The position numbers and the translations under genes are program-made. This document shows positions 42,529-49,984 of a stretch of DNA of 64,000 nucleotides, in pieces. The DNA is from Nocardiopsis sp. YSL2 (lineage in GTDB: Bacteria > Actinomycetota > Actinomycetes > Streptosporangiales > Streptosporangiaceae), in contig NZ_JAMOAO010000001.1 of the NCBI RefSeq assembly GCF_030555055.1, positions 3,596,001-3,660,000 of the forward strand. Direction: 5' to 3'. The notes under the pieces were generated by a model. That model was not told where the DNA came from, did not search any database, and saw only the letters and a program-made list of their open reading frames with translations. Within the stretch, counting starts at the first letter, position 1. Each line of letters begins with the position of its first letter.

Positions 42529-42771
42529 GGGAGGGGGCTGCGCTGGAGGCGTCGGTTGAGGGTGGCCCGTGTTTCCGCGGAGCGGCCCGCGGGCGGTGGT
42601 GGGTGACGTGGGAGGGGGCTGCGCTGGAGGCGTCGGTTGAGGGTGGCCCGTGTTTCCGCGGAGCGGCCCGCGGGCGGTGGTGGGTGACGTGGGAGGGGGC
42701 TGCGCTGGAGGCGTCGGTTGAGGGTGGCCCGTGTTTCCGCGGAGCGGCCCGCGGGCGGTGGTGGGTGACGG
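42529..42771. repeat. Repeat array 1: three identical 81-bp tandem units with hairpins
   Basis: Units start at 42529, 42610 and 42691 and are nearly identical. Each holds GTCGGTTGAGGGTGG, a two-part hairpin (GCCCG ... CCGC-GGA-GCGG ... CGGGC) and GGTGGTGGGTGACG. The same layout, with different stem sequences, recurs in array 2 at 49591. The array lies in the mfd/sat-cysC intergenic region and ends 58 bp before the sulfate gene. Minus-strand frames through it encode repetitive peptides that I regard as spurious. Confidence 0.92.
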
Positions 42772-42782
42772 GTGGGAGCGGC

Positions 42783-42788
42783 ATACGC
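42783..42788 (+). promoter_or_regulatory. -10-like hexamer after array 1
   Basis: TACGCT follows GTGGGTGACGGGTGGGAGCG. The same arrangement (a TATCCT just past the last repeat) follows array 2. No good -35 is visible at 17 bp, so this is tentative. Confidence 0.35.
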
Positions 42789-42829
42789 TAGGGGCGTTTG
42801 GCGGGCTCCACAGAGGAAGGACGTGCGCG

Positions 42830-47787: not shown

Positions 47788-49071
47788 GTGGCGTCCATCG
47801 AGTCAGTACACGCAAGGGAGATCCTTGACTCCCGCGGTAACCCGACCGTCGAGGTCGAGGTCGTCCTCGACGACGGCATCAGCGCTGTCGCGGGTGTGCC
47901 CAGCGGCGCCTCCACCGGCCAGTTCGAGGCCGTCGAACTGCGTGACGGCGGCGACCGTTACGGGGGCAAGGGCGTGACCAAGGCGGTCACCGCCGTCAAC
48001 GACGAGATCGCCGACGAGTTGCTCGGGCACAACCCCGACGAGCAGCGGCTCATCGACCGCGCGCTGATCGACCTGGACGGCACGCCCGACAAGTCCCGCA
48101 TCGGCGCCAACGCCATCCTCGGCGCGTCCCTGGCCGTGGCCAAGGCCGCCGCGCTGGAGGCCGAGCTGCCCCTGTACCGCTACATGGGCGGCCCCAACGC
48201 CCACGTGCTGCCCGTCCCGATGATGAACATCCTCAACGGCGGCGCGCACGCGGACAGCAACGTCGACATCCAGGAGTTCATGGTCGCGCCCATCGGCGCG
48301 GCCACCTTCTCCGAGGCGCTGCGCTGGGGCACGGAGGTCTACCACGCCCTCAAGGGTGTTCTCAAGGCGCACGGCCTGGGCACCGGCGTCGGCGACGAGG
48401 GCGGTTTCGCGCCCAACCTGGACAGCAACCGGGCCGCCCTGGACCTGATCGTCGAGGCCATCGAGAAGGCCGGCTACACCCCGGGCACCGACATCGCGCT
48501 CGCCCTGGACGTGGCCGCCAGCGAGCTGTTCTCGGAGGGCGTCTACACCTTCGAGGGCAAGACGCGCTCGGCCGAGGACATGGCCGCCTACTACGCCGAG
48601 CTGGTCGAGTCCTACCCGCTGGTCTCCATCGAGGACCCCCTCGACGAGGAGGACTGGGACGGCTGGAAGAAGCTCACCGAGCAGATCGGCGACAAGGTGC
48701 AGCTGGTCGGCGACGACCTGTTCGTCACCAACCCCGAGCGCCTCAAGCGCGGCATCGACTCCGACACCGGCAACTCGCTCCTGGTCAAGGTCAACCAGAT
48801 CGGCACCCTCAGCGAGACCCTGGACGCGGTCAGCCTCGCCCAGCGCAGCGGCTACACCGTCATGATCAGCCACCGGTCCGGCGAGACCGAGGACACGACC
48901 ATCGCCGACATCGCGGTGGCCACCAACGCCGGACAGATCAAGACGGGTGCCCCGGCGCGCAGCGAGCGCGTCGCCAAGTACAACCGGCTCCTGGGGATCG
49001 AGGAGGAGCTCGACGACGCCGCCGTGTACGCGGGCGTGTCGGCCTTCCCGCGCTTCACCGCGCGCGGCTAG
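47788..49071 (+). CDS. eno: Enolase
   Basis: A 427-residue glycolytic enzyme converting 2-phosphoglycerate to phosphoenolpyruvate. Signature stretches include [43 protein letters not shown], the metal-binding [31 protein letters not shown] with the catalytic Lys, and [19 protein letters not shown] 47788 has GGAG upstream. A -10-like TAGTCT lies about 55 bp before the start. ftsB starts nine bases after the stop, so transcription continues into the division gene, as in mycobacteria. Confidence 0.99.
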
Positions 49072-49080
49072 TCTGCCCCA

Positions 49081-49593
49081 GTGCCCCGCGAATCCAAACA
49101 GCCACCCACAAAGGCCCGGAAGGCGACCAAAGCCGACAGGCCGGGCCGTGCTGCGCGGAAGCGGGGGGCCGCAGGCCCGGGTGTGGGCCGCACCTCACGG
49201 GTGCGGCCCACCCTCACCAGCCGGGCCGCGATCCTGGCCCTGGTGGTCTGTGTGATCGCGCTGAGTCTGGCCTACCCGCTGCGGGAGTACATCCTGCAGC
49301 GCGCCCAGATCGCCCAGCTCCAGGAGGAACGGGCGCGCATGGAGGACTCCGTGAGCGAGCTGCGCGAGCGCGAGGCGGCCCTGGGCGATGACGAGTACGT
49401 CGAGCAGGAGGCCCGGACCCGCCTGCACTACCAGTACCCGGACGAGACCGCCTACATCGTCATCCGCCCGGGCTCGGACGCCGACGCCCACGCCGAGGCG
49501 GCTCCCACCGAGCCGTGGTTCACCGCGCTGTGGCGCTCGGTCGCCGGGGCGGACAGCCCCAGCGAAGAGAACCTGTCGGTGACCCGGCCGTAG
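49081..49593 (+). CDS. ftsB: Septum formation initiator FtsB/DivIC
   Basis: A 170-residue bitopic membrane protein. A basic cytoplasmic head of about 48 residues leads to one transmembrane helix (about 50-68, AAILALVVCVIALSLAYPL). A short coiled coil follows (YILQRAQIAQLQEERARMEDSVSELREREAAL), then the conserved YVEQEARTRLHYQYPDETAYIVI segment. FtsB acts in the divisome with FtsQ and FtsL. It is the second gene of the eno-ftsB-DUF501-ppx order. Its TAG stop codon is the first three bases of repeat array 2, so the array begins inside the gene's last codon. Confidence 0.94.
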   Translation: MPRESKQPPTKARKATKADRPGRAARKRGAAGPGVGRTSRVRPTLTSRAAILALVVCVIALSLAYPLREYILQRAQIAQLQEERARMEDSVSELREREAALGDDEYVEQEARTRLHYQYPDETAYIVIRPGSDADAHAEAAPTEPWFTALWRSVAGADSPSEENLSVTRP

Positions 49594-49984
49594 CCGGTGG
49601 GTGCGCGGAGCGCGCCGGACCGGCGATGGTGGGTGACGGGTGTGGGGTGTGCGCCGGAGGTGTCGGTTGAGGGTGGTAGCCGGTGGGTGCGCGGAGCGCC
49701 TCGGACCGGCGATGGTGGGTGACGGGTGTGGGGTGTGCGCCGGAGGTGTCGGTTGAGGGTGGTAGCCGGTGGGTGCGCGGAGCGCCTCGGACCGGCGATG
49801 GTGGGTGACGGGTGTGGGGTGTGCGCCGGAGGTGTCGGTTGAGGGTGGTAGCCGGTGGGTGCGCGGAGCGCCTCGGACCGGCGATGGTGGGTGACGGGCG
49901 TGGGGTGTGCGCCGGAGGTGTCGGTTGAGGGTGGTAGCCGGTGGGTGCGCGGAGCGCCCCGGACCGGCGATGGTGGGTGACGGG
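49591..49984. repeat. Repeat array 2: four 86-bp tandem units plus a 50-bp partial
   Basis: Full units start at 49591, 49677, 49763 and 49849, and a partial unit runs 49935-49984. Each contains a hairpin GCCGGT-GGGT-GCGC-GGA-GCGC-CTCGG-ACCGGC, then GATGGTGGGTGACG and GGAGGTGTCGGTTGAGGGTGG. The only differences between copies are in the hairpin's internal loop and a T/C after GACGGG. It is the same family as array 1, with changed but still complementary stems. Intergenic between ftsB and the DUF501 gene. Confidence 0.92.

Follow-up and report, generated by a model that had tools for sequence, protein, structure and literature searches.

Two tandem arrays in the genome of Nocardiopsis sp. YSL2 belong to a large family of tiny DNA elements in soil actinobacteria, a family that apparently has no name. 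The arrays lie in a 64-kb window (the whole stretch of 64,000 nucleotides that was analysed, contig NZ_JAMOAO010000001.1, positions 3,596,001 to 3,660,000; all coordinates below are counted from its first letter). The analysis shows the family itself, the anatomy of its units, the covariation of their stems, its distribution, and sites that carry a copy in some species and lack it in others. We favour, at slightly below even confidence, the reading that both arrays are sites of a non-autonomous mobile element whose family is dispersed in actinobacteria and which would act through a folded G-rich single strand.

Array 1 (42529..42771, plus strand) consists of three 81-bp two-hairpin units and array 2 (49590..49984, plus strand) of 4.6 units of 86 bp. 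Tandem Repeats Finder (TRF) gave the same periods as the original prediction, with 3.0 copies and 100% matches at 42529-42770 (period 81) and 4.6 copies and 98% matches at 49590-49984 (period 86). Each unit runs through hairpin 1, a block (C/G)GTTGAGGGTGG, hairpin 2 and a G-run tail, in that order. In the last unit of array 1, as read and parsed, hairpin 1 is GCGCT-GGA-GGCGT (42702..42714), followed by an exact match to the core block GTCGGTTGAGGGTGG (42713..42727), by hairpin 2 with outer stem GCCCG/CGGGC and inner hairpin CCGC-GGA-GCGG (42727..42756) and by the tail GGTGGTGGGTGACGGGTGGG (42757..42776). The corresponding parts in the last unit of array 2 are GCGCC-GGA-GGTGT (49909..49921), an exact GTCGGTTGAGGGTGG (49920..49934), GCCGGT/ACCGGC around GCGC-GGA-GCGC (49935..49968) and the tail GATGGTGGGTGACGGGCGGG (49969..49988), all on the plus strand; GTCGGTTGAGGGTGG occurs exactly seven times in the window. 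On direct reading of the DNA, the hairpin 2 stems are those described originally. Hairpin 1, which lies upstream and has the same C-GNA-G loop type, the G-run tail, the short copy and the wide range of the family had been missed.

For the comparison of copies, 47 distinct units were assembled, nearly one per array, mostly from this genome (G000) and three close relatives (two units come from one array of G031). The pattern by which they were selected constrained most of the tail, together with the non-G letter in its first two spacers, and left its last six letters free; 46 of the units were parsed for hairpins. A second set of 40 units was formed by the full-length top 40 of 48 covariance model matches, the other 8 being second or partial units; these were not picked by the pattern and fit it too. 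Hairpin 1 usually has 5-6 bp, with a GNA loop in 38/46 parsed units, and hairpin 2 has an outer stem of about 5 bp and an inner hairpin with a GNA loop in 29/46. In the alignment of 47, the inner loop carries G in 43 units and A in 41, and its middle base is free (G 15, A 13, C 12, T 7). It can be seen that the kept loop of the original prediction stands as to its G and A, while GGA is too narrow a description and GNA a better one. The tail consensus in all 87 units is G-N-T-GG-H-GGG-H-GACGGG-H-GGG, where N is A or G in most cases; 77/87 tails have the run GG-H-GGG-H-GRC-GGG-N-GGG in full, and the last spacer is T in 43, C in 32, A in 9 and G in 3. Four G-runs with short loops on the same strand as the hairpins make up, at the level of sequence, a G-quadruplex motif. 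One strand carries two kinds of motif that can stabilise single-stranded DNA, the mini-hairpin and the G-run tail. Inner units of an array often have a worn end; the last unit keeps its end.

The stem covariation is real. In hairpin 2 of the 47 units, 92.8% of the cells were paired and 46 cells were changed on both sides, against 11.0 after shuffling (0/500 shuffles as high; the shuffles here and below ignore the kinship of copies and are not a phylogenetic null), while slid controls were 32-58% paired. The 40 further units, found by covariance model and aligned on sequence alone, gave 90.2% paired cells and 44 doubly changed cells against 16.6 shuffled (0/500), with slid controls at 38-53%. 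For hairpin 1, centred on its loop with the loop placed by the best stem, pairs 1 to 5 were paired in 47/47, 47/47, 47/47, 46/46 and 43/46 units, against shuffled means of 45.0, 33.8, 35.1, 21.8 and 32.9; G-T pairs are tolerated there. At the mfd site, the outer stem is GCCCG/CGGGC in G000 and G027, GGCCGC/GCGGCC in G031 and GCCCC/GGGGC in G001. The compensatory changes claimed from the two arrays thus hold in 47 units and again in 40 others, and stems that change without compensation, looked for in both sets, are not what these copies show. Conservation of the loop and of the G-rich tail amid paired stem changes suggests that evolution preserves the fold itself. The further claim of selection on a structure, not mere repeat expansion, is borne out by the covariation in its first half only: the units within an array are nearly identical, so that head-to-tail expansion also forms part of the story.

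The loops follow a rule reported for DNA. Mini-hairpins of DNA with a GNA or GNNA loop are extraordinarily stable (PMC4686876); one of them is CGCGAAGCG, a sequence that many of our units contain. In such mini-hairpins the loop is closed by G-C pairs; a loop of this kind was found at 42/47 loci outside the genus and in 38/46 hairpins 1 within it. The loop rule is the same in both cases, as is CGCGAAGCG itself; the mini-hairpins of that source are oligonucleotides, whereas here they form a genomic repeat family. We infer that DNA rather than RNA is the selected form.

Copies are dispersed through the genome and the genus. With up to 2 mismatches, GTCGGTTGAGGGTGG occurs at 140 places in the whole genome against 16 for its reversed control, and exact GTCSGTTGAGGGTGG at 65 places against 0. 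The original prediction turned on other copies in the genus, and exact GTCSGTTGAGGGTGG is present in 37/40 genus genomes (control zero). The covariance model R1 has matches in 40/40 of them and, with at most 109 candidates scored per genome, counts at least 105 units here. A home-made gene map, with borders from a simple codon-usage caller, placed 81 clusters of three Nocardiopsis genomes inside genes in 10 cases and between genes in 70 (1 not scorable), with no fixed orientation or gene context; what counts as inside a gene differs between this count (10/81 clusters) and a second one (15/71). In the list of 78 places at up to 1 mismatch, neighbours no more than about 300 bases apart share one strand.

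The family extends well beyond Nocardiopsis. Among 200 genomes of the GTDB family, R1 matched 22, namely 11/11 genus members sampled and 11/189 others, in six further genera. An exact pattern had given 11/11 and 9/189 and had pointed to a restriction to the genus, which R1 and the scanning of named genomes overturned. The loci inspected, which come from four of the six further genera, have a short form without hairpin 2, with a GNA loop in 17/20 such loci. The scan of named genomes with GTTGAGGGYGGTGGHGGGHGACGGGHGGG returned at least 120 stretches; among the 80 matches listed, 33 are from Nocardiopsis and 47 from Streptomyces, Streptantibioticus, a Streptomycetaceae bacterium, Amycolatopsis, Nocardia and Allosalinactinospora. 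Since these 47 loci were chosen by the tail pattern only, and GTTGAGGGYGGTGGHGGGHGACGGGHGGG is silent on the hairpin, a hairpin found there is an independent test. The best hairpin just upstream of the tail had a GNA loop in 39 loci and a GNNA loop in 3 more, with at least 5 unbroken pairs in 39/42 triloop cases (second pair G-C in 20, C-G in 21, G-T in 1). Because stems were extended only while paired, the pair table is paired by construction, and the tests proper are stem length and loop against random controls: a GNA hairpin of at least 5 pairs lay beside the tail in 38/47 loci, against 0.33% of 9400 random 30-mers and 0/47 control 30-mers taken just 3' of the tail. The short form looks basic, and the two-hairpin unit was seen in Nocardiopsis only. 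The basic element of about 48-56 bp is made up of a C-G(N)NA-G mini-hairpin, GTTGAGGGYGG and a tail of G-runs ending GACGGGHGGG; the Nocardiopsis version has a second GNA-capped hairpin between block and tail, which gives units of 78-92 bp.

Fixed sites were compared between species. Among the 47 loci outside the genus, 9 could not be scored, 22 are intergenic and 16 lie within genes, 10 of these in sense and 6 in antisense orientation. Sense copies inside genes are always in the (S)VEGG frame, 10/10 outside the genus and 4/4 within it (two orthologous in each group). One coding site followed in 30 genomes holds two-hairpin inserts in 2 (G025, 84 bp; G014, 81 bp), short inserts in 2 (G037, 51 bp; G038, 45 bp) and degenerate inserts of 51 bp in 3 (G030, G019 and G029). 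The other 23 have no insert, among them the two genomes most closely related to G025 at this site, G028 and G023. All insert lengths are multiples of three, and the protein reads through the insert in the four filled copies translated (L315, L316, L319 and L324). At a second site, also in 30 genomes, 4 carry one two-hairpin type and 3 a different one (two units in one of them), 2 have short copies, 4 have some 50-60 bp whose sequence is unclear, and in 17 no copy could be recognised. The DUF501 site carries two-hairpin arrays in G000, G001, G027 and G031 and short units in G019 (about 17) and G037 (three). Copies thus stand at the same, orthologous places in several related species, with unit numbers that vary between species. 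The pattern means either that insertion recurs at the same place or that copies are lost cleanly. Judged by eye, GGG lies just 5' of the insertion point at 6/9 sites with an empty counterpart; the exact border is ambiguous because the element's own end is G-rich.

A mechanism of the following kind would account for these features. The G-rich strand, exposed as single-stranded DNA, would fold into its hairpin or hairpins and a G-quadruplex, and an enzyme would recognise the folded strand and insert the element beside a short G-run. The inserted unit would end in the same kind of G-run as the entry site. Each copy would in this way recreate its own target, so that further insertion or unequal exchange could build head-to-tail arrays. 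A fuller version, which we put forward as doubtful, is that of a miniature mobile DNA spread across several actinobacterial families, with a C-G(N)NA-G mini-hairpin and a terminal G-quadruplex, which would be moved as structured single-stranded DNA by an enzyme outside the REP/IS200 group, insert beside G-runs, multiply head-to-tail and enter proteins in frame as a linker of SVEGGGGRRxG type. That the GNA/GNNA rule is followed across genera suggests selection on a folded single strand of DNA. The record of paired changes is a ready test set for finding a protein that reads the fold. Tandem numbers that vary next to promoters, and inserts that lie in frame within proteins, might serve as typing markers and may be a source of change in Streptomyces and Nocardiopsis.

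Several results weigh against mobility through a folded strand. GGG is lacking 5' of the insertion point at 3/9 empty sites. Folding energies are ordinary (z-scores from -1.31 to +1.33 for the units tried, with DNA and RNA parameters), and since the energy of a single unit is unremarkable, the structure is visible only by comparing copies. No replication-strand bias was seen (28/56 clusters), unlike IS200/IS605-type elements, for which such a bias is known. The transposases that move REP elements are of the Y1 type, and none (PF01797) is present in the four copy-richest genomes, G000, G001, G027 and G031; no other enzyme was found, Y1 being the one recombinase searched for. Viral contigs held 0 copies, and plasmids and phages gave no match to array 2. 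With a Streptomyces unit as query, 18 plasmid records and 1 phage record matched in part, none over at least 80% of the query, a weak result in that the density of copies in Streptomyces is not known. Both the missing strand bias and the missing viral or plasmid copies argue against an element that is active and spreads freely. The site comparison is one between species and not between strains of one species, so that no insertion was witnessed, and part of the presence/absence pattern could stem from vertical inheritance followed by clean loss. A search of 1.13 Mb from three genomes for an autonomous parent, with left and right parts up to 5 kb apart, found none.

Proteobacteria are the best-known source of interspersed hairpin repeats, and the family was compared with such repeats and with other known systems. 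As in the original prediction, no named element is known to match. In the window no Rfam model reached its gathering score on the units, and in 14 loci, up to E 1, Rfam gave only tRNAs and two weak unrelated matches. Clustered regularly interspaced short palindromic repeats (CRISPR), set aside from the start, are ruled out: there are no unique spacers and the whole period repeats at 98-100%. Repetitive extragenic palindromic (REP) elements and REPINs of the GTAG superfamily, with their transposase (RAYT/TnpA-REP), are alike in being short, high-copy hairpin repeats, mostly intergenic as here in the genus, with compensatory stem changes. In contrast, the present family has head-to-tail arrays, GNA triloops, a long conserved G-run tail and frequent in-gene copies outside the genus. 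A GTAG-type REP is a palindrome of about 20-50 nt with an unpaired GTAG; our units are 78-92 bp or about 50 bp, GTAG precedes hairpin 2 in 45/87, itself a point of likeness, and the short form is without hairpin 2. Inverted dimers or bacterial interspersed mosaic elements (BIMEs) are absent, neighbours being on the same strand. The REP-associated transposase that the original prediction proposed to look for did not turn up: Y1/RAYT matches number 0 in this genome. They occur in 13/40 genus genomes, including two in G019, fifth richest by exact core, and four Y1 loci that were fetched had no convincing unit beside them (best E 0.13). The family may work like a REP element, and by tag, dimer layout and transposase it is not one.

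The CGTC-tagged REPs come close in two respects: CGTC, CCTC or TGTC is a frequent ending of our hairpin 1, and the CGTC-tagged superfamily is also without a dedicated transposase (PMC3733652). Their tag is unpaired, their stems have 8-9 bp and their loops 4-5 nt (PMC3733652). The stems of 5-6 bp, the GNA triloops and the CGTC-like letters lying partly in the stem set our units apart from the superfamily as described there. No description of this actinobacterial repeat family was found in open-licence PMC papers, and among the 20 listed of 32 papers containing core strings no title concerned bacterial repeats. Mycobacterial interspersed repetitive units (MIRU) are likewise short actinobacterial tandem units at gene borders, and BOX elements are likewise modular; both appear to differ in sequence and hairpin plan. 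Rickettsia palindromic elements also lie in frame inside genes, in a different phylum.

Mobility may instead proceed by a double-stranded circle, a serine or other recombinase exchanging strands at a GG or GGG core with the hairpins as its binding sites and no need of a single strand. We consider this unlikely. It would suit the insertions beside G-runs at 6/9 sites, the head-to-tail arrays and the lack of Y1 in the four copy-rich genomes, but by itself it leaves the stem covariation with kept loop G and A unexplained. IS607-type elements, which integrate a circular form with strand exchange at a GG-type core, would offer a parallel.

The surroundings of the arrays bear on a second alternative. 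By domain search, array 1 lies between mfd (minus strand) and an ATP-sulfurylase/APS-kinase gene, the two being divergent; array 2, by domain search and open reading frame ends, lies between divIC and a DUF501 gene. Both arrays stop just 5' of a probable -10 box, TACGCT (42784..42789, plus strand) for the ATP-sulfurylase/APS-kinase gene and TATCCT (49991..49996, plus strand) for the DUF501 gene, the promoter role being deduced from sequence. Among the relatives' loci seen (L142-L158 wholly or partly left out), a TACGCT counterpart is found also where the array is lacking (e.g. L125, L126), and array-less relatives carry TATGCT or TATCCT at the DUF501 -10 position (e.g. L164, L167). A chromosome or gene-control element would be a protein-binding or quadruplex site that influences DNA topology or transcription and that, after an ancient spread, has been retained for this role. 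It would explain why the window arrays and their counterparts in G001, G027 and G031 end at the -10 box, and why copies are retained at the same places in several related species. It has a small chance in our estimation, since the 81 clusters have no fixed orientation or gene context, 16/47 listed loci outside the genus are inside genes and presence at the two sites studied in depth is patchy. A fixed place relative to promoters was rejected on the same 81 clusters, which show no such rule.

Old repeats spread by recombination and replication slippage alone, with hairpins and G-runs promoting slippage and no dedicated enzyme, are improbable: near-identical units within arrays, unit numbers variable between species and orthologous copies common to several species would follow, while dispersal to unrelated sites and pairing kept through many stem changes would not. 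A structured RNA, for example of processing or guide type, is very improbable despite the covariation and the tolerated G-T pairs of hairpin 1, since the units have no Rfam match, orientation relative to genes is mixed, array 1 should be outside both main neighbouring transcripts (it lies between divergent genes, upstream of a probable -10 box), and the loops obey the DNA rule GNA/GNNA, GGCA in genus units and GCCA outside the genus misfitting the RNA tetraloop rule GNRA.

Some further observations concern single loci. The divIC stop codon (49591-49593) is the first TAG of array 2, so the repeat supplies it. At the DUF501 promoter of G019 (L161), about 17 head-to-tail short units of 54 bp stand where the window has five two-hairpin units. 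In L159, L160, L162 and L163 the divIC-DUF501 spacer is about 1.0-1.3 kb, against about 0.1-0.2 kb, and holds apparent extra small genes with, by eye, a crcB-type look. Streptomyces hygroscopicus (L418) and S. lycii (L448) share a short-form tandem array, located at one and the same gene border, whose exact units number two and three.

The window also holds a single short-form copy, with its core at 53665..53679 (minus strand, 1 mismatch), within a longer repeated intergenic mosaic, as seen on alignment with similar copies. This copy and 20 similar loci of the same genome (L033-L081) make up a long form, in which the core lies within shared intergenic sequence of about 100-200 bases on each side and modules come and go among copies. 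The long form was considered as one element with terminal inverted repeats and rejected, no consistent arm pair being found in the five stretches tried. In G144, which belongs to another genus of the family, the core is part of a palindromic element (L381-L389) that measures about 330 bp and has the ends GGTTGCGGCAATGGG and CCCATTGCCGCAACC; the core lies within its arms, in some copies in both. Elsewhere in the window, 21365-26546 is a complete rRNA operon (16S, 23S, 5S).

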